A stretch of DNA of 64,000 nucleotides, taken from Pontibacter diazotrophicus (GTDB lineage: Bacteria > Bacteroidota > Bacteroidia > Cytophagales > Hymenobacteraceae). The DNA lies in NCBI RefSeq assembly GCF_003367245.1, contig NZ_QRGR01000008.1, forward strand, positions 124,001-188,000, written 5' to 3'. The notes beneath the pieces are model-generated. The model had not been told where the DNA came from. It saw nothing but the letters and a program-made list of their open reading frames with translations, and did not search any database. The position numbers and the translations under genes are program-made. Shown here piece by piece: positions 37,441 through 53,716 of this stretch (positions are counted from its first letter, which is position 1; each line of letters starts with the position of its first letter).

Positions 37441-38118
37441 TTAATCCTTCTTCTTTTTCTTGTCCTGCTTGTGCTTTACCACTTTGGCTTCGCGGTAGAA
37501 GATAATTTCTTCTGCGATGTTGGTGACCTGGTCGCCTACGCGCTCTACCTTTTTGATGATAGACAGGACTGCCAGCGCCTCAGAAATCTTTTCCGGGTTA
37601 TCCGCCATAAATTTTGTCACGATAGTGTCTGATTTGCGGTAGATCTTGTCTAAGGCTCTGTCCCGCTTGATCAGCGTTTTTGCCAGCACAGGATCATTTG
37701 TTTTGAAAGCGACACGGCAATCTGCAAACATGGCGATTGCCTCCTCATACATGGGCACCACCTTGGTCATCTCCAGCAGCGGTTCACTTACAGGCGCATC
37801 CAGTTTTTTTACGAAGCGTGCGATACCCTCTGCTGTGTCGCCAATACGCTCGAGGTTGGCGTTTATTTTAAGCACCGCCAGTACCATGCGCAGGTCAACG
37901 GCTACGGGTGTAAACAGAGCAAAGAAGTTCTCGCACATGCGGTCAATCTTCACATCGAATTGGTTTACTTTTCTGTCGCGCTTAATAATTTGCTTTGCCA
38001 GTTCCTGGTCGGCCTGCAGCATGGCATCGTGCCCGCTTTGCAGCTGGTACTCCACCAGGTCCCACATTTCCAGCAGCTTCGTTTTAAGTTTTTCTAATTC
38101 TACATCTATATGAGGCAT
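37441..38118 (-). CDS. phoU: Phosphate-transport regulator PhoU
   Basis: 225 aa, two tandem three-helix PhoU repeats, each with an acidic metal-binding motif (KINANLERIGDTAEGIA and IIKKVERVGDQVTNIAEE). It represses the Pho response by linking PstB with the sensor kinase. Lys-rich C-terminal tail (KVVKHKQDKKKKKD). The leader 15-26 nt before ATG is TCTCACCCATAC, complementary over 13 nt to the candidate RNA at 48264. Confidence 0.95.
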   Translation of the reverse strand: MPHIDVELEKLKTKLLEMWDLVEYQLQSGHDAMLQADQELAKQIIKRDRKVNQFDVKIDRMCENFFALFTPVAVDLRMVLAVLKINANLERIGDTAEGIARFVKKLDAPVSEPLLEMTKVVPMYEEAIAMFADCRVAFKTNDPVLAKTLIKRDRALDKIYRKSDTIVTKFMADNPEKISEALAVLSIIKKVERVGDQVTNIAEEIIFYREAKVVKHKQDKKKKKD

Positions 38119-38178
38119 CGTAATCTAAATTAGTATGGGTGAGAATATATAAGGAAACGTTATAAGGAGGCAAATAGC

Positions 38179-38943
38179 TTATCCGAAACGCCCGGTTATA
38201 TAATTTTGTGTGCGGTTGTCCTGCGGACTCGTGAACATTGTCTTGGTTTTAGAAAACTCCACCAGTTCCCCCATATAAAAGAAAGCAGTATGATCGCTCA
38301 CACGGCCCGCCTGCTGCATGTTGTGCGTTACAATAACGATAGTATACTCGCTCTTCAACTCATAGATCAACTCCTCTATTTTAGCAGTAGAAAGCGGGTC
38401 GAGGGCAGAGGCAGGTTCATCCATCAGCAGCACGGAAGGCGAAATGGCCAGTGCGCGGGCAATGCACAGCCTTTGCTGCTGCCCACCTGATAATGCCAGT
38501 GCTGATTGGTTGAGCTTGTCTTTCACCTCTTCCCAGAGTGCAGACCGTCGCAGCGACTTCTCTGCCGCTTCCTCTAAAACACTCTTGTTTTTGATGCCCT
38601 GTATTTTGAGGCCATACACCACATTCTCAAAAATGCTCTTCGGGAAAGGGTTTGGCTTCTGGAACACCATACCTACTTCTTTCCGCAACTCATCCACACG
38701 CACGTCCTTTGCATAGATGTCTCTGCCGTCCAGCAGAATATCTCCTTCTGTCCGGAAGCCGTCGATGTAGTCGTTCATGCGGTTAAAGGTGCGCAAGAAC
38801 GTAGACTTGCCACAGCCGGATGGGCCAATGAAGGCAGTCACATTTTTTTCTTCCATGGCAATATTGATGCTCTTAAGGGCATGGAAGTCGCCGTAGTAGG
38901 CATTCAGCTCTTTTGCTTCAAGCTTCGTTGTTTTTTTATTCAT
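38179..38943 (-). CDS. pstB: Phosphate ABC transporter ATPase PstB
   Basis: 254 aa from Met at 38943. Walker [11 protein letters not shown]-loop [12 protein letters not shown], signature LSGGQQQRL, Walker [14 protein letters not shown], switch His in VTHNMQQA. It powers high-affinity phosphate import. There is a 167-bp spacer to pstA (38944-39110) in which nothing certain was found. Confidence 0.97.
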
Positions 38944-39110
38944 AAATGAAGAGAATCGATAAAAGACATAAGGCACAGGCGTGCTGTTACTGTTGATCTA
39001 AAACACTGTACATTCTTTACCTCCACTGGCGTTATCTGCTATTAGTATAACGTGCTGAAGGTAGAAAAATTAGTCTTGTGTCCTGATTCTTATCCTGCTG
39101 ATCCTTATTG

Positions 39111-39968
39111 TTACCACTTGATTTTCTTTTGCTGTCTGTTGCGTAAGTATACGGCAATTCCGTTCAGCAAAAAGGTAATTGCTAACAAAACTATAATGGC
39201 TCCTGCTGCATTCGTCAAAAATGCCTCCTGTGGTCTGGAGGTCCAGTTAAAGATCTGGATCGGGAGCACAGTAAACTCATCAAGCGGTGTGGCTGGCGTA
39301 AAAGGCACATAAGCCAGGGCACCAATAACGATAAGCGGAGCAGCCTCGCCCACAGCCCTTGAAAGTGATAGGATGATGCCTGTCAGGATGCCGCCAAAAG
39401 ATGCCGGCAGCACCTGGTTCCAGACAGTTTGCCACTTGGAGGCGCCCAGGGCAAAAGAACCATCGCGCACGCTGCGGGGCACCGCTTTGATTGCCTCACG
39501 AGTGGTTACAATGATAATGGGGAGGATCAGGAGCGACAAGGTAAGCGCACCTGCCAGGAGGCTGCCGCCCAGGCGCATCTGGCGCACGAATACCTCCAGG
39601 CCCAGCAAACCATAGATAATGGAAGGCACCCCTGCTAAGTTTGCAATATTAATTTCCAGAAAGTTCGTCCACCTGTTCTTCCTGCTGTACTCTTCCAGGT
39701 AAATGCCGGCACCCACACCTAAGGGGAAGGCGATAATGGCAGTCAGCACCAGTATCCAGAGAGTGCCAGCCCAGGCCGTTAATATACCGGCGCGGCTCGC
39801 CCTGCGCGAGGGCAGGCTGGTCAGGAAGTCCCAGTCGATGCGGGAAAAGCCTTCTATGGCGATATCAAAGAGGAAAACTGCGAGTATAACCAGCCCGATG
39901 AACGTACAGAAGACACCGAAAACCTGAAATGCTTTGTCTTTGAGCCTGTTCTTTTCTGAATTAGTCAT
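39111..39968 (-). CDS. pstA: Phosphate ABC transporter permease PstA
   Basis: 285 aa, six helices; EAA-loop region EAIKAVPRSVRDGSFALGA and the GIILSLSRAVGEAAPLIVIGA segment (short motifs) are typical of PstA. It overlaps pstC by 8 bp. Confidence 0.95.
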   Translation of the reverse strand: MTNSEKNRLKDKAFQVFGVFCTFIGLVILAVFLFDIAIEGFSRIDWDFLTSLPSRRASRAGILTAWAGTLWILVLTAIIAFPLGVGAGIYLEEYSRKNRWTNFLEINIANLAGVPSIIYGLLGLEVFVRQMRLGGSLLAGALTLSLLILPIIIVTTREAIKAVPRSVRDGSFALGASKWQTVWNQVLPASFGGILTGIILSLSRAVGEAAPLIVIGALAYVPFTPATPLDEFTVLPIQIFNWTSRPQEAFLTNAAGAIIVLLAITFLLNGIAVYLRNRQQKKIKW

Positions 39969-40836
39969 ACTTTTCCTGATATTTCTTTTTTATCCAGAAG
40001 CTGATATTGTTCAGCGCAAACGTGAAAATGAAAAGGGTGATACCGGCGGCAAAGATGGTGCGGTACTCCAGGGAGCCATGGGGCACGTCGCCTAAACTCA
40101 CCTGCACAATATAAGTCGTGATGGTCTCAATAGGCACCAGCGGGTTTAGCGTAAGGCGCGGCTGCTGGCCTGCGGCGATGGCCACAATCATGGTTTCGCC
40201 TACTGCCCGGGAGATGCCCAGTATAACAGATACCACAATGCCCGAAGAGGCCGCAGGCACCATCACGCCAAATGCAGTCTGCAGGCGGGTGGAGCCCATG
40301 CCATAGGCAGCTTCCCGCAGGGAGCGCGGTACGGCACTAATGGCATCTTCACTGAGCGAGGAAATCATTGGGATGATCATAATGCCCATCACAATACCTG
40401 CCGACAAGGCATTGAAACCAGCCAGACCAGGTATAAAGCCCTGTAAAAAAGGTGTGACTACTGTGAGGGCAAAGAAGCCATACACTACTGTTGGGATGGT
40501 AGCCAGCACCTCCAGCATCGGCTTTATCACCTGTTTAAACCCGGCATGTGCATACTCATTTAAGTAAACAGCGATGGTCAGGCCAAGGGGTAAGGCTACG
40601 GCAATGGCAATAAATGTGGTGAGCAGAGTGCCTGCCACCAAAGGCATGATGCCAAACTTTTTATCGGCAAACAGGGGTGTCCACTCCTTCTCGGTCAGGA
40701 ACCGGACAATGGATACTTCACTGAAGAAGGCAATAGACTCCGAGAGCAATACCCAGATAATGCCTATCGTGATAAGGATTGTGATTACCGCTGATAACCA
40801 CAACAAGCCCTCGATTATTTTTTCAGATACTCTCAA
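39961..40836 (-). CDS. pstC: Phosphate ABC transporter permease PstC
   Basis: 291 aa, six helices; EAA loop DAISAVPRSLREAAYGMG and the GISRAVGETMIVAIAAG segment are typical of PstC. It follows pstS after a 73-bp spacer holding a strong hairpin. Confidence 0.95.
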   Translation of the reverse strand: MRVSEKIIEGLLWLSAVITILITIGIIWVLLSESIAFFSEVSIVRFLTEKEWTPLFADKKFGIMPLVAGTLLTTFIAIAVALPLGLTIAVYLNEYAHAGFKQVIKPMLEVLATIPTVVYGFFALTVVTPFLQGFIPGLAGFNALSAGIVMGIMIIPMISSLSEDAISAVPRSLREAAYGMGSTRLQTAFGVMVPAASSGIVVSVILGISRAVGETMIVAIAAGQQPRLTLNPLVPIETITTYIVQVSLGDVPHGSLEYRTIFAAGITLFIFTFALNNISFWIKKKYQEKYD

Positions 40837-40858
40837 GGCGCTGCCTGTTTATTTGTAA

Positions 40859-40895
40859 GCATGCGTACAGCAAAAAGGCTTTGCCGTACGCATGC
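40859..40895 (-). promoter_or_regulatory. Intercistronic hairpin between pstS and pstC
   Basis: Arms GCATGCGTAC (40859-40868) / GTACGCATGC (40886-40895) plus inner GCAAA/TTTGC. No T-run follows in the minus direction. Such hairpins stabilise or partly terminate upstream mRNA, and would allow more PstS than permease. Confidence 0.6.
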
Positions 40896-40909
40896 TATCC
40901 TATTGTCTG

Positions 40910-41911
40910 TTACTGTTGCTGGGTAGTAGCATTTGCGCCTGAGCTGAATTGCTCGAACTTCTGCTTCTGCTCCTCATATATTTCGGCTGGCATCGGGATA
41001 TAACCTACCTCCTCGCCAAGCTCTGCCGCGTTGTCGAGGTAAAAGTTAACGAACTCTACTACTTCTGGTCTGCTAGCTGCTCTGGAATTAACATAGATAT
41101 AGAGCGGGCGGGAAAGGGGTGCATAAGAGCCGTCTTTTACTGTTTCAAGAGAGGGCAGGATGGCACCCTGTCCGTTGCTGTCGTTCTCGTCGTTTACCGG
41201 CACGGCTTTCAGCTTGTCTTGGTTCTCATCATAGTAAGCGTACCCGAAAAAGCCAAGGGCATATGGGTCAGTAGAAACGCCCTGCACCAGTACGTTGTCG
41301 TCTTCGCTGGCCGTATAATCACCGCGGCTGGCGTGGCTTTCGCCTACAATGGCTTCTGTAAAGTAGTCGTAAGTACCAGACTCTACACCGGCACCGTACA
41401 GGTGAATCTCCTGGTCAGGCCACTCCGGACGAATCTGGTTCCATCTGGTGATAGTGCCTTGAGCGGCAGGTTCCCATATTTTCTTCAGTTCTGCTACGGT
41501 GATGTCGTTTACCCAATCGTTCTCCGGGTGCACCACTACTGTTAAGCCGTCGTAGGCTACAGGCAGCTCTACAAAAGTAATGTTGTTCTCTGCCGCAAGC
41601 TGCTTCTCAGAATCGTTCATGGTGCGCGAAGCATCCACAATGTCAATTTCGCCGCGGGAGAACTTCTTCATGCCGCCGCCTGTGCCTGATACACCCACAG
41701 TCACTCTCACGTTAGGTGCCTCTTCACGGAAATCCTCCGCTACAGCCTCTGTGATGGGGTATACGGTAGAGGAGCCGTCTATCTGGATATTACCTGAAAG
41801 GTCGCTGTTGGCACCTTCGGTTGTGCTGCCGCCACAGGCGCTGAAGAGCAGAGTGCCTCCTAAAAGAAGGGCTGCGTTTATTTTGAAATAGTTAAGCCTA
41901 AGATTCAACAT
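40910..41911 (-). CDS. pstS: Phosphate-binding lipoprotein PstS
   Basis: 333 aa from Met at 41911 ([19 protein letters not shown]), giving a lipoprotein signal with lipobox LFSAC (Cys 26). Binding-site segments: [39 protein letters not shown], and VESGTYDYF with the phosphate-binding Ser/Gly/Thr. It captures periplasmic phosphate for PstCAB and is first in the operon. Its 217-bp upstream region holds two possible Pho half-sites (42102-42118). Confidence 0.95.
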
Positions 41912-42101
41912 ACAATAAGATGTTATGGGTTGGTTGGTTTTAGATGGTCTTGAATATATCAATATTACTTTACTGCGGCTATACTATAATGTATATGAAG
42001 TAGTTGTGTGCCGTGGCAGTAGAGCCGTTCAGTCTTTGTTATCAGGCGATTTTGAGTATGCAAAGTTGTGCTACAAGCAGGCAATCTGCACCTTGTCGTG
42101 T

Positions 42102-42128: not shown

Positions 42129-43340
42129 TTACAGCGAGATTTCCATCTGCATCCTGAACATGTAGGCATCCTCGCGGCGCTCCTGCTGCAGCAGTGTTAC
42201 ATCGCTCTGTACCTTTAGGCTGTGCCCCACAATATACTTCGATATACCTACTGTGTATTGATCCTGTGCTCTTCGGCCTAGTATAGGTGTAGGGTTATAG
42301 TTGCTGTAGCGGCCTGCAATTTCCCAGTTGGTTTTAAAGAGGTATCCTGCCTGCAGGTTCAGGCCGTTGCCTGTGGTAAAAGCTTCTTCTATGTTTCCCT
42401 CTGCGTCTCTTCGTACCACAGGGCCTGGTGTTTCCTGGTTTGTTGAGCTGCTAAAAGCTTCTTTATTGGCATATTCGCCCATAAAAGAAAAGCCTCTGTA
42501 CTTAAACATAGCGTCCACAAACACAGTGCTCAGGTCCCGCTGCTCGCTTAAGAAGTCACCCAACTGGCCGCCTTCACGGGAGGCATTGTCGTTATAATCA
42601 TAGGTGGCGGCTACAGACAGCTTCGGTGTTTGCTCTCTGAGCAGGTCACTGTTAAAATAGTCCCCGTTGCCTTTAAACTCACCGAAGGGCAATACCTCTA
42701 CACGTGCGGTATAATCGTAGCCACCAATATTGGTTACCGTGATGTTACGGCCTTCCCCCATTGATATAGCGCCGATTTCGCGCAGCACCACCTGGCCTAC
42801 CCGGTGCACATGGTGCAGCTGTAAACCTGCGTCCCGGTCAAGGGTGAAGCGTGCGTTCAGCAGGCTTCGGTCTACAAACTGCAGGTTTTGGGAGGAGATA
42901 ACACGCTCCCGGTTGCCCGGCAGCTTTGTCTGGCCTGCCCACAGGTACAGGTTAGGTGCGAAATTCCATTTGGCCACGGCGTCCAGCACAATGTTATCGG
43001 CATTGTTAGACTGCAACCGCGTGTCGTGCCCAATATCCCGGTTACTGAGGGCAAGCTCTATTTTGTATACAAACGTTGGAGAGAAAGCGAAACCATCAAA
43101 TTTGAGGCGGAATCTACGGGTCGTGAAGTTATCGTCCCACTCATTTGTAGAGGGGTTGGTAACACCCTGGTACAGCGTCTGAAATCTTGTGCTGAACTTC
43201 AAGCTGAAGGAAGAATCTACGGCAATCACATTGAGGCCTTTACCCCAGCTGCTTTTTATCGGGCTTTGGCTGTAGGCGTTGCTGCTCCATAGCAGGAGCA
43301 TAAGGAGCACTAAAGCAGCTCCTTTGATTTTGTAATGCAT
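42129..43340 (-). CDS. Phosphate-selective porin (OprO/OprP family)
   Basis: 403 aa with a signal peptide (MHYKIKGAALVLLMLLLWSSNAYS). The mature barrel has FSTRFQTLYQGV, DDNFTTRRFRLKFDGFAFSP, WAGQTKLPGNRERVISSQNLQ and the final strand TLLQQERREDAYMFRMQMEISL (short motifs), typical of OprP/O-type porins. It would let phosphate or polyphosphate cross the outer membrane, upstream of PstS in function. It is transcribed from a divergent Pho-type promoter at 43492-43548. It may read through into pstS. Confidence 0.88.
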   Translation of the reverse strand: MHYKIKGAALVLLMLLLWSSNAYSQSPIKSSWGKGLNVIAVDSSFSLKFSTRFQTLYQGVTNPSTNEWDDNFTTRRFRLKFDGFAFSPTFVYKIELALSNRDIGHDTRLQSNNADNIVLDAVAKWNFAPNLYLWAGQTKLPGNRERVISSQNLQFVDRSLLNARFTLDRDAGLQLHHVHRVGQVVLREIGAISMGEGRNITVTNIGGYDYTARVEVLPFGEFKGNGDYFNSDLLREQTPKLSVAATYDYNDNASREGGQLGDFLSEQRDLSTVFVDAMFKYRGFSFMGEYANKEAFSSSTNQETPGPVVRRDAEGNIEEAFTTGNGLNLQAGYLFKTNWEIAGRYSNYNPTPILGRRAQDQYTVGISKYIVGHSLKVQSDVTLLQQERREDAYMFRMQMEISL

Positions 43341-43491: not shown

Positions 43492-43548
43492 CAAAATAAC
43501 AGCTTTACTGTTACTCGCATATTATCCCAATGTTATGCTAATGTTAAG
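43492..43548 (-). promoter_or_regulatory. Pho-box array and -7 box for the porin (pst) direction
   Basis: Four half-sites on the minus strand at exact 11-bp period: CTTAAC (43548-43543), CATAAC (43537-43532), GATAAT (43526-43521), AGTAAC (43515-43510). After a 10-bp gap comes TTATTTTG (43499-43492), one mismatch to TAnnTTTG. This matches the geometry of PhoB sites that replace the -33 element. The mRNA leader would be about 150 nt. Confidence 0.65.
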
Positions 43549-43732
43549 AATATCAGAAGCTGTTCTTATGTGTTAGTTAATTCAATTTACTAAATATCAG
43601 TGAGTTACCTGTTGATTTGTAACATAATATTGGAAGTGTTACAGAAGAACCAAGCAATTTAATATTTAGGTAATGCACGGGTAAAGCAGTGTTAATATTA
43701 AAGTAAAGCTCTCTTAACATACCTCCGCCATA

Positions 43733-43789
43733 CTTAACGGTATCGTAACCCCGCCTTAAAATTGCCTTAAAGTAGCCGTTCTACCTTTG
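43733..43789 (+). promoter_or_regulatory. Pho-box array and -7 box for the surface lipoprotein/TonB unit
   Basis: Four half-sites at exact 11-bp period on the plus strand: CTTAAC (43733), CGTAAC (43744), CTTAAA (43755), CTTAAA (43766-43771). A 10-bp gap leads to TACCTTTG (43782-43789), an exact TAnnTTTG. No TTG lies at the usual -33 distance, as expected for an activator-dependent promoter. The rest of 43341-43906 is AT-rich without other features. Confidence 0.7.
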
Positions 43790-43906: not shown

Positions 43907-45298
43907 ATGAAAGTAACAAGTAAATTTTTGCTTGCGCTGTTGCTAACTGGTTCTGTGTGCACCTTTACATCATGTGATGACGATGATAATGGTGGGCCAG
44001 TAATAGTAGATCCGGTAGGAGAGGAGATTGTTATAACAGAAAGCGCTGCCGGTACAGGTACTGTCACCTGGACGGCGAACAACACTTACATCCTGGATGG
44101 CTTTGTGTTTGTAAACGATGGTCAGACACTTACTATTGAGCCAGGTACAGTTATCAAAGCCAAACCAGGTGAAGGTGAGAACGCAAGCGCGCTGATTGTA
44201 GCACGTGGCGGTAAAATTATGGCACAGGGCACTGCTGAGAAGCCAATTATCTTTACGGCACTGGAGGATGATGTAACAAGAATTGATGACATGCCGCTTG
44301 ATGCTACTGGTAGATGGGGTGGCGTTATCATACTCGGAAAGGCTACTATAAACAGACCAGGTGGCGAAGGAGCTATCGAAGGTATCCCTACTGAAGAGAC
44401 AAGAGGTACCTATGGCGGTACAAACGATACAGATAACTCAGGCATATTCAAATATGTGTCTATCCGGCATGCTGGTACAGTTATCGGTTCCAATAACGAA
44501 ATCAACGGCCTGACAATGGGTGGTGTTGGTTCTGGTACTACTATAGAGTATGTAGAAGTTTATTCGAACCAGGATGACGGATTTGAGTGGTTCGGTGGTA
44601 CTGTAAACACCAAATACCTTGTGTCTGCTTTCAACGATGACGACCAGTTTGACTATGACCAAGGCTGGAGAGGCAACAATCAGTTCTGGTTTGGTATCTA
44701 CCGCGAAGGTGCTGGTGGAACAGGTGGTGAGTTTGACGGTGGTTCTAACCCGGATGATGCGGAGCCTTTCTCTATCCCTGTAATCTCTAATGCTACCATT
44801 ATTGGTGGTAACTCCCTGGATGGCCAGAACGCTGTGATGCTGGTAGATAATGCCGGAGGTAAAATCTACAACAGTGTTTTCGCTGACTTTAGAGGAGGTA
44901 TTGTGGTAGAAGACCTGAGTGACGAAAACGTAGGAGACAGCCGCCAGAGATTAGAGGAAGGCGACCTTATGTTCAGAAACAACATCTTTACGAACGTTGC
45001 TGATAACACATTCGAAGGAATAGCCGCAGTTACTCCTAACCAGGGCTTTCTGGTGGATTACCTCAACGCCAGCGAGAACAGCAACAGGGTAACAGCGGAT
45101 CCTGTGTTGGCAAACATCAGCAGACAGAACAATGGAACACTGAACCCACTCGCAGCGTCTGGTAGCGCGGCTCTTTCCGGAGCCTCCATGCCTGAAGGCA
45201 GCTTCTTTACAAACGTGGACTACGTTGGCGCATTCGACAACGCCAATAACTGGATGAAAGGCTGGACATACATCGACCAGCTCGGTTACCTGCAATAA
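43907..45298 (+). CDS. Surface lipoprotein, right-handed beta-helix type, TonB-receptor partner
   Basis: 463 aa. Signal peptide with lipobox (CTFTSC, Cys 23) followed by DDDDN, an acidic run after the Cys like the export signals of surface lipoproteins in Bacteroidota. The body has repeated beta-helix rungs (LTIEPGTVIKAKPGEG; ALIVARGGKIMAQGTAEKP; WGGVIILGKATIN; YVSIRHAG; IEYVEVYSNQDDGFEWFGG). The role is unknown; as first gene of a Pho-controlled unit with a TonB receptor it probably binds a phosphorus source at the cell surface. No type IX sorting tail is seen. Confidence 0.82.
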   Translation: MKVTSKFLLALLLTGSVCTFTSCDDDDNGGPVIVDPVGEEIVITESAAGTGTVTWTANNTYILDGFVFVNDGQTLTIEPGTVIKAKPGEGENASALIVARGGKIMAQGTAEKPIIFTALEDDVTRIDDMPLDATGRWGGVIILGKATINRPGGEGAIEGIPTEETRGTYGGTNDTDNSGIFKYVSIRHAGTVIGSNNEINGLTMGGVGSGTTIEYVEVYSNQDDGFEWFGGTVNTKYLVSAFNDDDQFDYDQGWRGNNQFWFGIYREGAGGTGGEFDGGSNPDDAEPFSIPVISNATIIGGNSLDGQNAVMLVDNAGGKIYNSVFADFRGGIVVEDLSDENVGDSRQRLEEGDLMFRNNIFTNVADNTFEGIAAVTPNQGFLVDYLNASENSNRVTADPVLANISRQNNGTLNPLAASGSAALSGASMPEGSFFTNVDYVGAFDNANNWMKGWTYIDQLGYLQ

Positions 45299-45387: not shown

Positions 45388-48243
45388 ATGTTACGTAAAA
45401 TTACGAGCCTAATAGGCTTATTAAGTCTTACCGTATCCTTTGCATTTGCGCAAAGCGGCGTTATCAGAGGTCAACTCACAAGTAGCGAGACTGGCGAAGA
45501 GTTGATAGGGGCTACCATCGTGATAAAAAGTACCTCCAACGGTACAGCTACTGACCTGGATGGTAAATTTAATCTGACAAACATTCAGCCTGGCACCTAT
45601 GAGCTGCAGGCATCCTACATCTCCTATGAGCCTAAAACGGTAACAGGTGTTGTAGTAAAAGAAAATGAAGTAACAGTTCTCAACATTCAGCTGGGATCTG
45701 CTACCACCAAACTAAAAGAAGTTGTGATTGAGGGTAGAGCCATCAGAAGCTCTGAAAATACCCTGCGCAACACGCAGCGGAAAGCCGCCGTGGTAATGGA
45801 CGGTGTGTCGGCGGAGCAGTTCTCCAGAAGCGGAGACAGCGATGCAGCTTCAGCCCTTACACGTGTAACGGGCATTTCCCTGGAAGGCAGCAAGTACGTG
45901 TATGTGCGTGGCCTGGGCGACCGCTATGTTAAAACCGCCCTTAACGGCGCTGAAATTCCTGGCCTTGACCCAAACAGGAACACCGTGCAGATGGACCTCT
46001 TCCCGTCTAACCTGCTGGACAACCTGATGGTGTCCAAAACATTCACGCCTGATATGCCGGGCAGCTTCTCCGGTGGTTTTGTAAACATCACCACAAAAGA
46101 TTTCCCGGACAGATACACACTGCAGTTTTCAACATCTGTTGGCTATAACGATCAGGCTACTTTCAACAGCAGGTTCCTGAACTCCAACAAAGGTGAAACA
46201 GACTGGCTTGGTTTTGACGATGGTACCAGAGCTGTGCCGGATGTGATAGATTATCCAATCCCGTACGAGAGTTATTCTAACAGGCAGCATGCTGAGCAAA
46301 TAGACGAAGCAACGAATGCTTTTAACACAGAGATGAGTCCCAAAAGAATGACAGCTCCTGTCAACCATGCCCACTCTTTCTCTTTAGGCAACCAGACAGA
46401 GGTGTTCGGCCGCCAGTTTGGCTATGTGATGGGGCTTTCTTACCAAAGAAACTACTCATACTACGATAACGGCACCTTCGGCCTGTGGGAACTGAACAGC
46501 ATTGGTGCTAATAGCTTAAACAACAACAGCCTGTACAAAGATGAGAGGGGTGTTGAAGAGGTATCGCTTGGTTTCTTATCTAACTTCGCTTACAAACTCA
46601 ACAGCAACAATAAATTATCCCTGAACCTGATTAGAAACCAGAGCGGTAGCAACTCCAGCAGATACCTGTTTGGTACATACCCAGGCACCTCGGGAGTGAG
46701 CGACGACAGAGCTATTTTTGAGTCCAGAGCACTACAATATACACAACGTGCCTTATCCAGCGCCCAGCTAAAAGGAGATCATGTGCTGCCTGGTCTGAAA
46801 AACAGCAAAGTTGACTGGTTAACCTCTTTCACGCTATCGCAGCAGGATGAGCCGGATCTACGCTTCTTTGCCAACGACTACTTTGTGAACGGCACAGACA
46901 CTACTTACAGAATACAGCCTGCTGCCTATACGTTGCCGTCACGTTTCTTCAGAGATCTGGATGAGACAAACCTGGATGTGAAAGTGAACATTGAAACTCC
47001 GTTCACCATCTGGAATGGCCTGGAGGCAAAAACAAAATTTGGAGCTGCAGCGCTTCGTAAAGACAGAAAGTTCAGGGAGAACATCTACCGTTACAGATTT
47101 AACGAAGGTTATGGCTACAACGGTAACATCAACGACTTCTTCGCTCCTGGAAACCTTGGTATTGTGGCCCGCCCGCAAGACCCTGAAAGCGGTGGCTTGT
47201 ATCGCTATGGTGTTTATCTGCAGGATGGCTCACAACGCACGAACAACTACGACGGCCAGGAATCAATTTACGCAGGATATGGAATGATTGATCTTCCGCT
47301 TACAGAGAAGCTAAGGTTAGTAACTGGTGCACGTGTGGAGGCAACGGATATATATGTTGAAAGCTTTAACAAATCGCTTGAACCAGGTGTACTGAAGCAG
47401 GTAGATGTGCTGCCGTCTGTTAATGCTACTTATAGCCTGACAGAAAAGATGAACCTGAGAGGAGGCTACTCCAGAACACTGGCAAGACCAAACTTCAGAG
47501 AGATTGCACCTTATACTTCATTTGACTTTGTAGGAGAGCCTGCCTTTACGGGTAACGCGAACCTGGAGAGAACCACCATCGACAACTTCGACACGAGATG
47601 GGAGTGGTATCCTAATCTTGGTGAGTATGTAAGTGTGAGTGCATTCTACAAGAACTTCCAGAACCCGATAGAGCGCACCATCAACACACTGGCGCAGAAC
47701 AATGAGATCTTTATCCAGAATGTGGACAATGCGAAAGTATACGGGTTAGAATTTGAGGCAAACAAGCGCCTGTCGTTTATCTCTTCCAGTCTCAATAATT
47801 TTATCGTGAGCTCCAACCTGTCCCTGATAAAGTCAGAGGTAAGCATCAAACCACAGGAACTCGCATTTATTCGTGCTGTGAGGCCGGATGCAGGTGACAC
47901 AAGACCCCTGTTTGGCCAATCGCCTTTTGTAGCCAACGCCAGCCTGACGTACCATAACGATTCGCTGGGACTAATCGCGACAGCAAACTATAACGTATTT
48001 GGCGACAGAATTTCCGCTATCTCACTTGGTGGTACGCCAAATATCTACGAGCGCTCAAGACCAGTGGCGAGCATCGTGATTTCTAAAAGCCTGGGTGACT
48101 CATTTACAGCAAAAGTATCCGCTGATAATATCTTCAACCCTGATTTTGTGAACAGCCACGAGTATAACGGTGACGAGTATATCTACTCATCATACAAGCA
48201 AGGCAGAACCTTCTCTGTTGGAGTGACCTACCGGATAGATTAA
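45388..48243 (+). CDS. TonB-dependent receptor of the phosphate-responsive unit
   Basis: 951 aa. Signal peptide (to about residue 21), a carboxypeptidase-regulatory-like domain (residues 25-110; GVIRGQLTSSETGEELIGAT), plug domain (RKAAVVMDGVSAEQFSRSGD; YVRGLGDRYVKTALNGAEIPG; SFSGGFVNITTKDFP as short motifs), and barrel with GGYSRTLARPNFREIAPY and a terminal strand (TFSVGVTYRID). It imports a ligand across the outer membrane with TonB energy. Location after a Pho-type promoter suggests an organophosphate or phosphate-rich ligand, which is inference. The leader has TCTCACCAAT. Confidence 0.9.
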   Translation: MLRKITSLIGLLSLTVSFAFAQSGVIRGQLTSSETGEELIGATIVIKSTSNGTATDLDGKFNLTNIQPGTYELQASYISYEPKTVTGVVVKENEVTVLNIQLGSATTKLKEVVIEGRAIRSSENTLRNTQRKAAVVMDGVSAEQFSRSGDSDAASALTRVTGISLEGSKYVYVRGLGDRYVKTALNGAEIPGLDPNRNTVQMDLFPSNLLDNLMVSKTFTPDMPGSFSGGFVNITTKDFPDRYTLQFSTSVGYNDQATFNSRFLNSNKGETDWLGFDDGTRAVPDVIDYPIPYESYSNRQHAEQIDEATNAFNTEMSPKRMTAPVNHAHSFSLGNQTEVFGRQFGYVMGLSYQRNYSYYDNGTFGLWELNSIGANSLNNNSLYKDERGVEEVSLGFLSNFAYKLNSNNKLSLNLIRNQSGSNSSRYLFGTYPGTSGVSDDRAIFESRALQYTQRALSSAQLKGDHVLPGLKNSKVDWLTSFTLSQQDEPDLRFFANDYFVNGTDTTYRIQPAAYTLPSRFFRDLDETNLDVKVNIETPFTIWNGLEAKTKFGAAALRKDRKFRENIYRYRFNEGYGYNGNINDFFAPGNLGIVARPQDPESGGLYRYGVYLQDGSQRTNNYDGQESIYAGYGMIDLPLTEKLRLVTGARVEATDIYVESFNKSLEPGVLKQVDVLPSVNATYSLTEKMNLRGGYSRTLARPNFREIAPYTSFDFVGEPAFTGNANLERTTIDNFDTRWEWYPNLGEYVSVSAFYKNFQNPIERTINTLAQNNEIFIQNVDNAKVYGLEFEANKRLSFISSSLNNFIVSSNLSLIKSEVSIKPQELAFIRAVRPDAGDTRPLFGQSPFVANASLTYHNDSLGLIATANYNVFGDRISAISLGGTPNIYERSRPVASIVISKSLGDSFTAKVSADNIFNPDFVNSHEYNGDEYIYSSYKQGRTFSVGVTYRID

Positions 48244-48664: not shown

Positions 48665-49597
48665 TTAAAAAATAACGCTGGCCAAAGGCAGGGCCTTTCT
48701 TATTCTTTCCTGCTCTGCTTCCGGAATGTTGTTCCCGACTAGTAACAAAGTACGCAGGCGCTTCATCTTTCCGAGCGCTGCCGGCAGGTGGGTAAGCTGG
48801 TTATAACTCAGGTCGAGCAGCTCCAGGTTATCCAGTTGCGTCAGTTCCTCCGGCACAGCCTTCAGTTGATTGTGCCCCAGCAAAAGACTTTGCAGGGATG
48901 TTGCCTTGCCTATCTGCTTGGGCAGTGATGTGAGCTGGTTGAAATCTAAGGCCAGACTTTTGAGCGCCTTCAGTTGAAAGAGCGCCTGAGGCACCTCCCG
49001 CAGTTGGTTCTGCGACAGTGACAGATCGCTTAACTTCCTGGTTTTTCCTATTTCAGATGGTAGCATCTCTAAATGGTTATAACTTAAGTTGAGTGTGTGG
49101 AGCGCACGCATGCGTCGAATCTGGGGTGAAATGGTCCTTATCTTATTCCCGTTGAGGTGCAGGACCTGTAGCTGCTGTAAGTTTCCGAAGCCGGCATGCA
49201 GTTCGGTAAAATGATTGTGGCTGAAATCTGCCTCCTGTAGTGCCTCCAGGGTATAAAAGGAAGCCGGCAACTCCCGGAGTTCGTTCTCGCTGAAAATGAC
49301 TTCCTGTAGATGCTGCAGTCTGCTGATTTCAGGAGAAATGTCAGTAATCTTGTTTTTCATGGCATTGATGAACTGCAGGTTTACCAGTTCACACAGTTCT
49401 GAGGGAAAGCTATAGTAGGTTTGCTGCCGGATGTTCAGGCGGTATACATCCTCTTTTTGCTGCAATGCCTCGGGTACATTATCATATACTTTGGCAGATG
49501 CCAGTTCCTGCTGCGCTAACGGCCTTGCCTGGGCACTGACTTTAAGGGGTTGCCAGATGGCCATCATCATAAACCCGGTAATGATTATTCTTTTCAT
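48665..49597 (-). CDS. Secreted leucine-rich repeat protein
   Basis: 310 aa with a signal peptide (MKRIIITGFMMMAIWQPLKVSAQ). From about residue 70 there are about ten 23-residue LRRs of the consensus LxxLxLsxNqLxxLPxxigxL (LHTLNLSYNHLEMLPSEIGK; LELLDLSYNQLTHLPAALGK). No catalytic domain is attached. It is presumably a periplasmic or surface binding protein; the partner is unknown. It lies within the phosphate island but shows no Pho-type site. Confidence 0.88.
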   Translation of the reverse strand: MKRIIITGFMMMAIWQPLKVSAQARPLAQQELASAKVYDNVPEALQQKEDVYRLNIRQQTYYSFPSELCELVNLQFINAMKNKITDISPEISRLQHLQEVIFSENELRELPASFYTLEALQEADFSHNHFTELHAGFGNLQQLQVLHLNGNKIRTISPQIRRMRALHTLNLSYNHLEMLPSEIGKTRKLSDLSLSQNQLREVPQALFQLKALKSLALDFNQLTSLPKQIGKATSLQSLLLGHNQLKAVPEELTQLDNLELLDLSYNQLTHLPAALGKMKRLRTLLLVGNNIPEAEQERIRKALPLASVIF

Positions 49598-49720
49598 TTA
49601 ATGATAGTTCTGTTTTGCTACGCTGTATTTTTTAATATATATGGGAGTCCCTGTATTTCTGAATCTTACTCTCGCTTCTAACCGCTTTTGCTAAAGTACC
49701 CGAGAGTTAAACCGGAGTAA

Positions 49721-49756
49721 AAAGGAAAAGGCTATGGGCACAAAACCCATAGCCTT
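49721..49756 (-). terminator. Terminator of phoX
   Basis: Perfect 11-bp arms AAGGCTATGGG (49728-49738) / CCCATAGCCTT (49746-49756), then TTCCTTTTT in the minus direction. It lies 22 bp past the phoX stop. Confidence 0.8.
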
Positions 49757-49778
49757 GGTATAATATCTGTTCAATTGG

Positions 49779-51446
49779 TTACTCATTCACCTGGATAATC
49801 CGTGTGGTTGACTTATGGTTGTTCACCTGCATACGCACCAGGTATATCGTGCTGCCAGATGATGGAGAAGGGCTGAAATCATACGTGTATTCTCCTGCTT
49901 TGAGGTTGCCGTTATACAAGGTTGCCACCTTCTGGCCTTGCATATCCAGTACTTCGACACTTACCAGACCCTGTTCAGGCACCTCTACCCTTACTTTGGT
50001 AACTGCCTGGAACGGGTTAGGGTAAACCTCTACCATGTTCGCTGGCACCAGAGCAGTTGCATTGCGGTTCTCCTTACCTAGAAACTGTTTGCGGGCAAAA
50101 ACAAAGGTAATGTCCCTGTTAAACTGTACCTCAGTACCTGCAGCATCTGTAAAGGTGGCCAGGTTAGACTGCCTCGGGTGCTGAATAGAAACAAAGCCAT
50201 ACTTAAAATCAGGGGAGAAGGTAAGGCCGGTAGACTCTGATCCGAAAGGAGTTGTCAGGAACAGCTCTAACTTCGGGTTCTCAGGCGTATGGTCCGGGCG
50301 GACTACCCAAAGGTTGTTGCGGCCGCCATCCTGCAGCGCCCACAGGTTGCCATCCCCATCAAAGGTAAGGTTGTCAATACCGGTTCCCCAGTTTTCAGTC
50401 TGGGTACCGCCGTTGTACTTCACTTCAAACAGCTGCGGCGTTACCCATGCCTCAATCTCTGATACGGTCATACCATCGTCCTTAAAGCGCCAGATAGTGC
50501 CTGTTCCTTTGGATGTGAAGTACATCTTGCCATCCGGGCCAAACTCAATGTCTTCCGGGTTTCTCCAGTTGGTGCCACCTACAGCAGGAGCCAGGCTTCT
50601 CGTGCTATTACGGTCTGCCTTTGTAGCGTTCGGAACCACCACCCAACTGCCGGTAGCTGCCGCCTCGCTGTCGCGCTTCAATACATATAGTGTTCCTTCA
50701 GACAAGTTACCCGGTGTGTTGGCAACAAACTTAAATACACCGCTCGAGCCGCCGTCTTCAGCCTGGTAAACAGTTACCCTGTCGGCACCTATAGCAATAT
50801 TCTCATGGTTCATGCGGCCCATTGCCCAAAGCTTGTCAGGTTTGCCGTCGCCGTCATAGTCAACAATCTTGCCTGTTTCCGGGTCTATTTCTACCTGCCA
50901 GCCCACGTCCTGGTAACCATCGCCATTGGCATCACCTGTATTGTAGGTTTCTTCTGATGTGATTAACGTGCCCCAGGGTGTAATACCGCCGGAGCAATTG
51001 CGTACAGTCTGTACCAAAGGAGAAAAATCTACTTTTCTTACTCCTTCAACTTCCCAAAGATTGGTTGCTTCATTCAGACGCATATCCAGAATAGAAATTC
51101 CGCCAGGGCTATTTTCATGGTTGATGGTTAAGTACCCTTTCTTGCTGCTGCCTTCAATGGGAATAAAAGCAGTGAAATCGTTATTGCCCGGTATCGTTCC
51201 TGTGCTACCATCGGTATAGCTGGTGAACCCCGTCTTTGCCAGCTGCTGGATGGCATGTGTTTCTGTAGGGAACGTAATGGTCTCAGACTGACCGATAGGC
51301 TGTACAGAGGTAAAGCTGCCTATCTTGTTTTTGTTTGGGGAGCCACTGCCTGCGGAAGTTACCGATTGCGCGGCTGTTTCCTGAAAAGTAACAGCTGCAC
51401 CAGAGATAATAGCTGCCATAAGAAGCCTTTTGTAGAACTTGTCCAT
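49779..51446 (-). CDS. phoX: PhoX-family alkaline phosphatase with type IX sorting tail
   Basis: 555 aa. Signal peptide, then the PhoX/DUF839 domain: YLTINHENSPGG, NCSGGITPWGTLITSEETYN (the conserved CSGG-TPWGT-E metal-site motif), MGRMNHENIAIG, NWRNPEDIEFGPDGKMYF and STGLTFSPDFKYGFVSIQHP (short motifs). PhoX uses Ca and Fe. The last 75 residues form a type IX secretion sorting domain (VEVYPNPFQAVTKVRV ... STTRIIQVNE), so it is secreted or surface-bound by T9SS. Upstream at 51556-51572 are two possible Pho half-sites. Confidence 0.93.
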   Translation of the reverse strand: MDKFYKRLLMAAIISGAAVTFQETAAQSVTSAGSGSPNKNKIGSFTSVQPIGQSETITFPTETHAIQQLAKTGFTSYTDGSTGTIPGNNDFTAFIPIEGSSKKGYLTINHENSPGGISILDMRLNEATNLWEVEGVRKVDFSPLVQTVRNCSGGITPWGTLITSEETYNTGDANGDGYQDVGWQVEIDPETGKIVDYDGDGKPDKLWAMGRMNHENIAIGADRVTVYQAEDGGSSGVFKFVANTPGNLSEGTLYVLKRDSEAAATGSWVVVPNATKADRNSTRSLAPAVGGTNWRNPEDIEFGPDGKMYFTSKGTGTIWRFKDDGMTVSEIEAWVTPQLFEVKYNGGTQTENWGTGIDNLTFDGDGNLWALQDGGRNNLWVVRPDHTPENPKLELFLTTPFGSESTGLTFSPDFKYGFVSIQHPRQSNLATFTDAAGTEVQFNRDITFVFARKQFLGKENRNATALVPANMVEVYPNPFQAVTKVRVEVPEQGLVSVEVLDMQGQKVATLYNGNLKAGEYTYDFSPSPSSGSTIYLVRMQVNNHKSTTRIIQVNE

Positions 51447-51555
51447 AGTTGTTGTAATGGTTTATGAGTTAAATTTCCAATGCCCAAAACAACTGTATTA
51501 AGTTTACTCTATGGTTAGTTAAAGTTTATCGAATCATCATGAAAACAATGTTCCT

Positions 51556-51572
51556 GTTAAGGTGATGTTATG
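51556..51572 (-). promoter_or_regulatory. Possible Pho half-site pair upstream of phoX
   Basis: CATAAC (51572-51567) and CTTAAC (51561-51556) on the minus strand, 11-bp spacing, as in the porin array. No clear -7 box at the expected place. Confidence 0.35.
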
Positions 51573-51590
51573 GAGGTTGATTTATGAGTC

Positions 51591-51621
51591 AAGTATCAAA
51601 TATCTGTCATGTTTGATACTT
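51591..51621. promoter_or_regulatory. Inverted repeat in the phoX/peroxidase divergent spacer
   Basis: 13-bp arms AAGTATCAAATAT (51591-51603) and ATGTTTGATACTT (51609-51621), one G-T pair, 5-bp centre. No T-run; it may be an operator dyad. It lies between divergent phoX and the peroxidase gene, about 100 bp from the latter. Confidence 0.45.
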
Positions 51622-51721
51622 AAGATTCTACTGTTTGTTAACTATAGGATAACCTATACATAAAGCATTGATAATAGTTGGTTGATTACTTTGTAGTAAT
51701 GTTCAAATAGAATTTCTATTC

Positions 51722-53716
51722 ATGATCTGCAAAAACAATATCATCCATAAGAGAAATCTGATGTCAGTGTTGCTACTGATGAGCGTGTGCCTGTTCTCAG
51801 GTGTTGTACTGACTTCATTCAAGGCCGAAACTGCCACTACTAACAGAGTAGCCGGCACCGTCCAGGAAAGCTTGATACAGGATATGGCTGTATTGAAGCA
51901 GCAGTCGCAGTACCTGACAGAAACGCTGGAGTCATCAGATCAGGAGCAGGTTGCTGTTGAGCAGCTGCAGGGCGCTTTCTATGAGGTAAAGCAGGCGTAT
52001 AAGAAAGTGGAATACCTGGTAGAGTACCTGGACCCGGAACTGGCAAAGAAAATCAATGGGGCTCCACTGCCAAAGGTTCTAATTGAGGAGGCAAATTACC
52101 AAACGCTTCAATTTCAGAAACCCAGTGTCAGAACCTTTCTGCCGGAGGGGTTGCAGGTACTGGAGGAACTGCTCTTTTCAGAGGAGGTTAATCAGGACAT
52201 GAGGAAAGACGCTATTGTGCTGTCTTACTCCCTTCAGGAAGCAATATCGCTGGTGGCAAACAGTTTGCACCATCAGCCACTAACAGATAAGCAAATCCTT
52301 GAAAGCCTGCGCGAAGAACTGATACGAGTTACGACCCTGGGCATTACCGGCTTTGATGCACCTGCTGGCGGACGAGAAATAGAGTACGCCACAATAGCAC
52401 TACAGCCAGTGCTAAATGCTTCGCAACAGTACGCAAGAACTACAAGCGGCAAGGCAAAAGCCCATAGCAGCAAAGCCGTACATCAACTGCAGCAGGCTGT
52501 TCTATACCTGCAGCAGCATTCGGATTTTGAGACCTTCGACAGGTTATACTATATAAGAGAGCTGGCAGACCCGGCTTACGCGGCACTTACAGCATTGCAG
52601 CAGGAGTTGCTGCCAACAGTTGCTTCCGTCTCCAAGCCGGTAAACGACCATGCCAACAGCCTTTTTAGTGCTGATTTTCTACAGGCGGCTTATTTTGCCA
52701 AACAAGACCGAAAGGAGCAGAAGCCTGAGCTAATAGAGCTGGGCAAGGTTCTTTTCTTTGATCCGGTGCTGTCGGCTAACAGCGAGCGTTCCTGTGCCAG
52801 TTGCCATGTTCCTTCCAAAGCCTTTACCGATGGCCAGGTCCGCAGCGTAGCTTTCGATTTTAATGGAACTGTACAGCGTAACTCGCCAACCCTGCTGAAC
52901 GCTGTTTTCAGCAATGCTTACTTCTGGGACAGCCGCGCAGTATACCTGCAGGACCAGGTGCCGGATGTACTGGTAAAGTCAGATGAGCTGCACGGCAACT
53001 ACGAAGAAGTTGTGCAAAAACTACAGCAAAGCACTGCCTACAGGAAGCATTTTAAGCGGGCGTTTGCAGATGAGCCGGACAATAGCTTAAATACAAATAC
53101 GATTAATCGGGCCATTGCTGCCTATGTGCAAAGCCTGGTGGCGCTCAACTCTCCTTTCGACCGCTACATGCGCCGCGAAACAGAACAGCTAAATGCTTCT
53201 GCAAAGCGCGGCTTTAATCTATTTATGGGAAAAGCGGCCTGCGGGACCTGCCATTTTGCCCCCACTTTCAACGGTACGGTGCCACCGCGCTACCTGGAAA
53301 GCGAGACGGAAGTGCTGGGGGTGACAGTTTCTGCTGATTTTGCACACGCCAAACTCGACGAGGACCCTGGTCGTGCAGGTGTGGTTCCGGCGGATGCCTG
53401 GCAACATTCGTTTAAAACACCTACTGTACGGAATGCGGGGCTCACAGCACCCTATATGCATAACGGTGCCTTTGCAACACTGGCAGAAGTGGTAGAATTC
53501 TATGATGCAGGTGGGGGAGCCGGTCTGGGGCTTGATGTGCCAAACCAGACCTTGCCCGACAGCCCCCTTAACCTGACAGCACAGGAAAAGGAAGATCTTA
53601 TTTCTTTTATGGAGTCTTTAACGGATACTGCTTCTGTTTTTTTAGCTCCGGAACGGCTTCCGCAGTTTCCAAAAAACACAGGCCTGCATGATCGGCCTAT
53701 CGGTGGGCGGTACTAA
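51722..53716 (+). CDS. Di-haem cytochrome c peroxidase (MauG/CcpA type) with an N-terminal helical domain
   Basis: 664 aa. Signal anchor (residues about 14-32), then about 280 residues of helical, imelysin-like sequence (QVAVEQLQGAFYEVKQAYKK; FLPEGLQVLEELLF). The peroxidase domain has two haem sites, SCASCHVPSKAF and ACGTCHFAP, and the C-terminal TPTVRNAGLTAPYMHNGAF segment with the distal Met. It reduces hydrogen peroxide in the periplasm, or oxidises a protein substrate. Haem attachment would depend on the ccm genes at 32-37 kb. Translation could also begin at Met 14 (51761). Confidence 0.88.
   Translation: MICKNNIIHKRNLMSVLLLMSVCLFSGVVLTSFKAETATTNRVAGTVQESLIQDMAVLKQQSQYLTETLESSDQEQVAVEQLQGAFYEVKQAYKKVEYLVEYLDPELAKKINGAPLPKVLIEEANYQTLQFQKPSVRTFLPEGLQVLEELLFSEEVNQDMRKDAIVLSYSLQEAISLVANSLHHQPLTDKQILESLREELIRVTTLGITGFDAPAGGREIEYATIALQPVLNASQQYARTTSGKAKAHSSKAVHQLQQAVLYLQQHSDFETFDRLYYIRELADPAYAALTALQQELLPTVASVSKPVNDHANSLFSADFLQAAYFAKQDRKEQKPELIELGKVLFFDPVLSANSERSCASCHVPSKAFTDGQVRSVAFDFNGTVQRNSPTLLNAVFSNAYFWDSRAVYLQDQVPDVLVKSDELHGNYEEVVQKLQQSTAYRKHFKRAFADEPDNSLNTNTINRAIAAYVQSLVALNSPFDRYMRRETEQLNASAKRGFNLFMGKAACGTCHFAPTFNGTVPPRYLESETEVLGVTVSADFAHAKLDEDPGRAGVVPADAWQHSFKTPTVRNAGLTAPYMHNGAFATLAEVVEFYDAGGGAGLGLDVPNQTLPDSPLNLTAQEKEDLISFMESLTDTASVFLAPERLPQFPKNTGLHDRPIGGRY

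Follow-up and report, generated by a model that had tools for sequence, protein, structure and literature searches.

Candidate PhoB operators with a shared geometry in a porin–TonB receptor spacer of Pontibacter diazotrophicus

Known Pho boxes and the arrays of the spacer

The core binding region of PhoP in Bacillus subtilis consists of four TTAACA-like repeats at about -60 to -22; it resembles the arrays described here in its number of repeats and differs in phylum and in the sigma -10 element. Riemerella anatipestifer belongs to the same phylum as Pontibacter diazotrophicus, the source of our DNA. A DAP-seq motif centred on TTTAACA, the same core word as in our arrays, was reported for its PhoPR system, which is distinct from PhoBR (PMC9603813). 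The E. coli Pho box is built from 11-nt direct repeat units with CTGTCAT letters, two of which form the basic box (PMC4415409), and lies 10 bp upstream of the -10 element (PMC1906773); our arrays share the length of the unit, the 10-bp distance and, in the candidate regulator, a near-identical recognition helix, but differ in their letters, in having four units and in a TAnnTTTG box instead of the sigma-70 -10 element. The repeats bound by cyanobacterial SphR (CTTAACCT, tandem 8+3; PMC1906773) have a near-identical core word, the same 11-bp head-to-tail arrangement and a place before pst and phosphatase genes, whereas cyanobacteria have at least three repeats and our arrays four, followed by the Bacteroidota -7 box TAnnTTTG and directed mostly at TonB receptor, lipoprotein and OprP genes.

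Omics studies have identified phosphate-starvation genes in Bacteroidota, and a binding-site motif was not found: our searches of the open-licence PMC literature, supplements aside, for a Pho-box motif of Bacteroidota, Bacteroidetes, Flavobacterium or Bacteroides returned none, and one may be in print elsewhere. PhoB of Bacteroides fragilis binds a 512-bp pst promoter by EMSA, with no motif given in the text available (PMC3547664), and a marine lipid-remodelling study marks plcP clusters, perhaps including flavobacterial ones, as carrying putative Pho boxes, likewise with no motif in the available text (PMC4796936). Phosphate depletion of Flavobacterium johnsoniae strongly induces genes that we compared with those of our locus by name, not by orthology, namely PhoX (12.5), a MauG-like protein (9.6), a PhoBR-linked TonB receptor (8.0) and PhoBR-linked lipoprotein (9.9), and the OprP gene is not induced (-1.3, adjusted p 0.25; PMC8115612); the main text of that paper makes no mention of a Pho box.

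The window, a stretch of 64,000 nucleotides from a P. diazotrophicus contig, contains a spacer (43492..43789) in which two four-step arrays face outwards, one towards an OprP-type porin gene and one towards a lipoprotein/TonB-receptor unit (Table 1). On the plus strand, the hexamers CTTAAC (43733), CGTAAC (43744), CTTAAA (43755) and CTTAAA (43766) are spaced at exactly 11 bp and lead through a 10-bp gap, GTAGCCGTTC (43772-43781), to the -7 box. On the minus strand, CTTAAC (43548), CATAAC (43537), GATAAT (43526) and AGTAAC (43515) are again followed by a 10-bp gap. Both arrays thus show the direct repeats of 11-bp period that mark a Pho box. The initial annotation had described this geometry, with four hexamers per strand, 11-bp steps, a 10-bp gap and an outward orientation, and was exact to the base except at the porin box, which it had given as TAnnTTTG and which carries T instead of A at its second base, as do 34% of 47 related sites. 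It had not remarked on a third ladder in the spacer, nor on the arrays towards the MauG-type gene and phoX.

Table 1. Arrays, boxes and genes of the window, with positions counted from its first nucleotide
Feature	Position	Strand	Evidence or remark
pstS-pstC-pstA-pstB-phoU, downstream of porin	37441..41962	-	pstS by family; pstC, pstA, pstB and phoU named by reading sequences
OprP-type porin, target gene	42129..43340	-	Porin_O_P 2.2e-9, residues 50-165
-7 box TTATTTTG, porin promoter	43492..43499	-	ends at 43492
Four-step array, porin promoter	43510..43548	-	model E 1.0e-11 (training-set site)
Distal ladder, six TAA steps	43660..43717	+	steps at 43660, 43671, 43682, 43693, 43704, 43715; 11-bp spacing
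Proximal four-step array, lipoprotein/TonB-receptor promoter	43733..43771	+	putative two PhoB dimers; model E 2.2e-9 (training-set site)
-7 box TACCTTTG, lipoprotein/TonB promoter	43782..43789	+	10 bp past array
Lipoprotein-like protein, target gene	43907..45298	+	no Pfam match; homologues follow array-bearing TonB receptors elsewhere
TonB-dependent receptor, target operon	45388..48243	+	CarbopepD_reg_2, Plug, barrel
PhoX-type alkaline phosphatase, target gene	49779..51446	-	PhoX 8.4e-44
Array and -7 box towards phoX	51485..51541	-	one mismatch; E 0.0018 (outside training set)
Four-step array and TTACTTTG box towards MauG-type gene	51637..51693	+	no mismatch; E 1.5e-4 (training site)
Di-haem CCP/MauG-type protein, target gene	51722..53716	+	CCP_MauG 5.4e-45

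Further along the window, phoD also occurs together with phoX and the MauG-type gene. A full array was sought before phoD, phoB and pstS of the P. diazotrophicus genome and none was found, but a Pho box does not strictly demand arrays at pst, phoB and phoD of its genome. Upstream of pstS there are only two intact steps, with TTTG one base off, so the pst genes of the window may be transcribed from the promoter of the porin. In 13 loci of the genus pstS likewise comes after an OprP-type porin, and porin-pst or pst units are headed by arrays in other genomes.

Occurrence of the motif from genome to phylum

In the window, four TAA words at 11-bp spacing start at six positions (both strands), which represent the three ladders of the spacer and one at 51639; among 17 other spacings of 7 to 24 bp, 15 gave none, spacing 7 gave one and spacing 8 gave four. 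Scored with a weight matrix whose training left out the P. diazotrophicus genome and included a close congener, the two spacer arrays reached 61.0 and 52.7, the MauG array 28.7 and the phoX array 23.9, compared with at most 3.4 on a single strand of each of 10 Markov copies of the window. The bare pattern, derived from the two spacer arrays (four TAA at 11 bp, N15, TTTG), matched the 6.4-Mb genome four times with no mismatch, and all four matches lie at pho-type genes: the porin, the lipoprotein/TonB unit, the MauG-type gene and a second phoX-like gene (contig 81). Allowing two mismatches gave 22 matches versus 9 for the reversed pattern. A trained model (E ≤ 0.01) found five matches, all before pho-type genes; four of these are training sites and the phoX one is not. 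Only one of the 65 Plug-domain matches over the cut-off in this genome, the receptor of the window, adjoins any of the five, so the motif is no general TonB-receptor element there. Two matches with one mismatch lie away from pho-type genes: C31:10001 has no pho gene assigned, and C47:178615 belongs to the SulP class described below. A MauG-phoX-LRR set is present twice in the genome (window 48665-53716 and L068:6388-12685, on G000:C81), with an array at each phoX-like gene.

Across 60 genomes of the family, the pattern matched 157 times, in 58 of the genomes, against 4 matches of the reversed pattern. We annotated 92 distinct arrays, drawn from all 54 matches in the genus except one duplicate, one match (the first listed) per genome from 30 genomes outside the genus, and 8 additional stretches; 56 of the 92 lie before pho-type genes, a share that may be inflated by the 8 stretches, which were picked by eye for pho-like letters. 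BLAST to the pho proteins of the window assigned 47 of the 56 (26 TonB receptors, 11 porins, 4 lipoproteins, 3 MauG, 3 phoX), and the remaining targets are 5 OprP porins, 3 proteins with GNAT and acyltransferase domains like those of OlsF ornithine-lipid synthases, and 1 glycerophosphodiesterase (GDPD). As TonB receptors are a large family, a BLAST match of about 30% identity to the receptor of the window is no proof of a phosphate receptor; what ties array-bearing receptors together more strongly is the lipoprotein that recurs beside them. Outside the pho group, 36 arrays stand before SulP transporters (21), outer-membrane efflux proteins (7), an RND-like protein (1, by reading), a lipoprotein-like family (2), a glycosyltransferase (1) and genes without assignment (4). 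The lipoprotein-like family, with no Pfam match and 71% identity between two genera, lies behind Pho-class arrays (L064:1579-3054, L075:1477-2979). Pho-like arrays also precede the OlsF-like GNAT and acyltransferase proteins at L047, L053 and L058, and phosphate control of ornithine lipids is suggested in another genus of the family.

The model (E ≤ 0.01) matched in 75 of 118 genomes of the order, leaving 43 without a match, and in 82 of 198 genomes of the phylum, leaving 116, the search filters losing weak matches at both levels. From the order, 29 new loci were sampled, with Pfam applied to one neighbour each of 20. Twenty stretches from 19 genomes (18 being first sites, two from the family of P. 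diazotrophicus) were read more widely: in 13 the array heads a TonB receptor with a lipoprotein homologue behind it, 3 contain a pst operon and 1 a polyphosphate-kinase-like gene (by reading), with 3 unassigned. In the phylum, the downstream protein matches a pho protein in 25 of 28 cases (18 TonB receptor, 4 OprP, 1 lipoprotein, 1 pstS, 1 MauG). The stretches read widely there, taken from the 28 new loci as 18 receptors and two without assignment, comprised 14 with receptor and lipoprotein, 2 with a pst operon, two receptors alone and one stretch under threshold. Genes of phoBR type lie near array-bearing genes in L198, L286, L298 and L301, in the case of the phylum stretch L298 near the receptor. 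Among pst loci obtained by protein search, 7 of 9 from Bacteroidota and 1 of 71 others contained a site scoring at least 9, a threshold chosen after the scores were known, the PstB search having returned mostly other phyla and so providing mainly a control set. The enrichment before pho genes of related genomes that had been proposed as a check of the motif was thus found in silico, at phoX and, in other genomes, at pst operons, with phoD lacking an array here; the reading of the arrays as PhoB sites gains support from enrichment before pho-type genes in genome, family, order and phylum alike.

PlcP-type genes were rejected as targets, since in L141, L153, L247 and L255 the array is oriented away from them, towards a different gene; in L198 a PlcP-type gene is faced only by a weak array (score 9.6). 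In two genomes of one family (1.6 and 1.1 Mb; L141:1246-2470 and L153:1231-2488), the array is directed at a small secreted-looking protein, with a calcineurin-like phosphoesterase in divergent orientation to it.

As 43 family sites served to train the matrix and the model, both have step number and gap built in; the searches with free gap (N5-35) and with free hinge between two ladders are independent of a fixed value. With the gap left free in the family, it was exactly N15 in 85 of 150 among the matches listed, followed, also among the matches listed, by 10 at N26 (one extra 11-bp step) and 6 at N6; these 150 come from genera other than that of P. diazotrophicus, and some ladders are counted repeatedly, having more than one TTTG. 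A peak at N15 when N5-35 is allowed indicates that the 10-bp gap is real. In the N26 ladders (for example G007:C11:334335 and G001:C19:291306), TTTG lies one 11-bp step further off, and these may be operators of five slots, the last of them degenerate. In 75 family arrays, each of the four slots carries TAA in 73-75 cases and neither flanking slot does so in any; in 65 arrays of the order and phylum, the two flanking slots carry it in 6 and 1, compared with off-phase means of 2.7 and 3.0.

The geometry is shared by arrays of other letters. Pho-class half-sites are CTTAACATTGG-like; a class of 21 family arrays (class B) has TTTTAAT half-sites, the same geometry and a position before SulP anion transporters. 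We read 14 SulP loci: each has its array placed between a kinase gene and the SulP gene, a response regulator was recognised in 13, and in 13 SulP is followed by a beta-carbonic-anhydrase-like gene (named by reading); the SulP-linked regulator looks like a second regulator on the same ruler. This arrangement was seen at L069:4542-8317 (G000:C47), with one mismatch in the P. diazotrophicus genome, and at 13 further loci such as L073, L081 and L103. A third, TCTAATGTG-like class precedes TolC/OEP-type efflux genes, mostly in genus g5 (L042, L048, L049, L052, L054, L056, L057). Geometry by itself was accordingly set aside as a mark of PhoB, with 21 of the 92 family arrays before SulP and 7 before outer-membrane efflux proteins: as other regulator classes share it, the spacing points to the regulator family and the letters to the regulator.

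The second deck of the lipoprotein/TonB promoter

Between the last step of the distal ladder and the first of the proximal array, the start-to-start distance is 20 bp. As no TTTG was found at the required distance from the ladder, the idea that it is a separate promoter was set aside. A search of 204 family genomes for two four-step ladders with N5-35 between them matched 21 of the 50 genus genomes, that of P. diazotrophicus included, and outside the genus once, in another genus and with a different spacing; the reversed pattern matched nowhere. The hinge measures 20 bp (N17 between the ladders) in all 21 matching genus genomes, and as its letters have a mean identity of 44% between genomes, length is kept rather than sequence. 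All 21 sites lie before a homologue of the lipoprotein (6) or the TonB receptor (15) of the window, and 20 are divergent from an OprP-type porin. The distal ladder has 6 steps in 12 genomes, 4 in 7, and 5 and 7 in one each, so that the count is even in 19, a proportion that overstates independence as the genomes are related; mostly even counts fit pairs of half-sites acting as dimers.

When second ladders were sought at offsets of 7 to 59 bp from 140 Pho-class arrays, offset 20 and its 11-bp repeats dominated, with single exceptions in L111 and L138. Comparison of 12 spacers showed the ladder to be absent in L077 and L100, a porin-side ladder in none, and a distance between porin and receptor arrays of 136 to 201 bp in the 10 with the ladder. 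The likeness to Streptomyces, where simple and complex Pho operators contain direct-repeat groups varying in number and organisation (PMC4415409), ends at the constant 20-bp hinge and the mostly even step numbers of the second deck here.

Regulator, alternatives and implications

The best candidate for the regulator, C87:151875, is directly followed by a PhoR-type kinase gene and scores 230 bits, below the TIGR02154 cut-off of 296.2; its recognition helix reads RTVDVHIRKVR, compared with RTVDVHIRRLR in E. coli PhoB. Judged by sequence, the spacer arrays are very likely PhoB operators. Each has four half-sites with a consensus of about CTTAACATTGG, head to tail at 11 bp, and a fixed 10-bp gap to a sigma-A-type -7 box. 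Taking the position of this box as mapped in F. psychrophilum (-12 to -5; PMC9723704), an array would span about -61 to -23. Two tandem PhoB dimers would fill this span, replace the -35 contact and recruit sigma-A at low phosphate. The spacer had been described as a bidirectional phosphate-starvation promoter; that it faces outwards both ways holds, and it is better regarded as two divergent promoters, one with an extra upstream ladder, from which the porin and the lipoprotein/TonB unit would be driven separately. The second deck (six half-sites, three dimers, 20 bp upstream) would reinforce the lipoprotein/TonB unit as an operator, raising its occupancy or output. We give a probability of about 0.88 to this reading as a whole, that is, operators of a phosphorylated PhoB-type regulator on two separate divergent promoters, with a reinforcing second deck at the lipoprotein/TonB one.

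The arrays could instead be operators of another OmpR/PhoB-family regulator controlling the same envelope and phosphate genes. The genome encodes five full-length PhoB-like regulators, our candidate among them, the ruler is also used by another regulator class, and the link to PhoB was drawn from sequence. We nevertheless consider this very unlikely, given that genes headed by arrays elsewhere include pst operons, phoX, GDPD and OlsF-type genes, that phoBR-type genes lie near array-bearing genes in the four loci named above, and that TTAAC is the core of the cyanobacterial Pho box too. A chance product of AT-rich DNA, or a generic upstream promoter element, might be invoked on the ground that TAA is a common word; against the few matches of the reversed pattern in the family, its complete absence in the two-ladder search, the Markov controls, the exact gap peak and the empty outer slots, its probability is negligible.

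More serious, though still unlikely, is an alternative in which the distal ladder would be an operator in its own right, or a relic of one, and no working part of the lipoprotein promoter. In its favour, the ladder lacks a -7 box and does not keep the 11-bp phase of the proximal array, and L077 and L100 have both promoters without the ladder. In 29 of the 50 genus genomes and in the rest of the family (apart from the one match of other spacing), the exact two-deck pattern does not occur. A relic would sit poorly with a hinge constant in 21 of 21 genomes despite the low identity of its letters, with the absence of the reversed pattern from 204 genomes, or with the varying distance between porin and receptor arrays in the 10 ladder-bearing loci.

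The shared ruler, the letter classes and the two-deck operator are new relative to the initial annotation. On balance we favour the view, with some reservation, that OmpR/PhoB-family activators of Bacteroidota use one rigid ruler (four half-sites at 11 bp, 10 bp, TAnnTTTG) with differing letters, so that regulons may be read by letter class, together with a two-deck operator that counts dimers (two proximal plus two or three distal) across a 20-bp hinge selected for length, not sequence. The motif, present across many genomes of the phylum, would make Pho regulons predictable from sequence and links to phosphate scavenging a TonB receptor/lipoprotein pair whose substrate is unassigned. It also gives a means of testing how activators of the OmpR family interact with the sigma-A promoter of Bacteroidota, and the two-deck operator may serve as a clean system for relating promoter output to PhoB dimers, their number and their phase.
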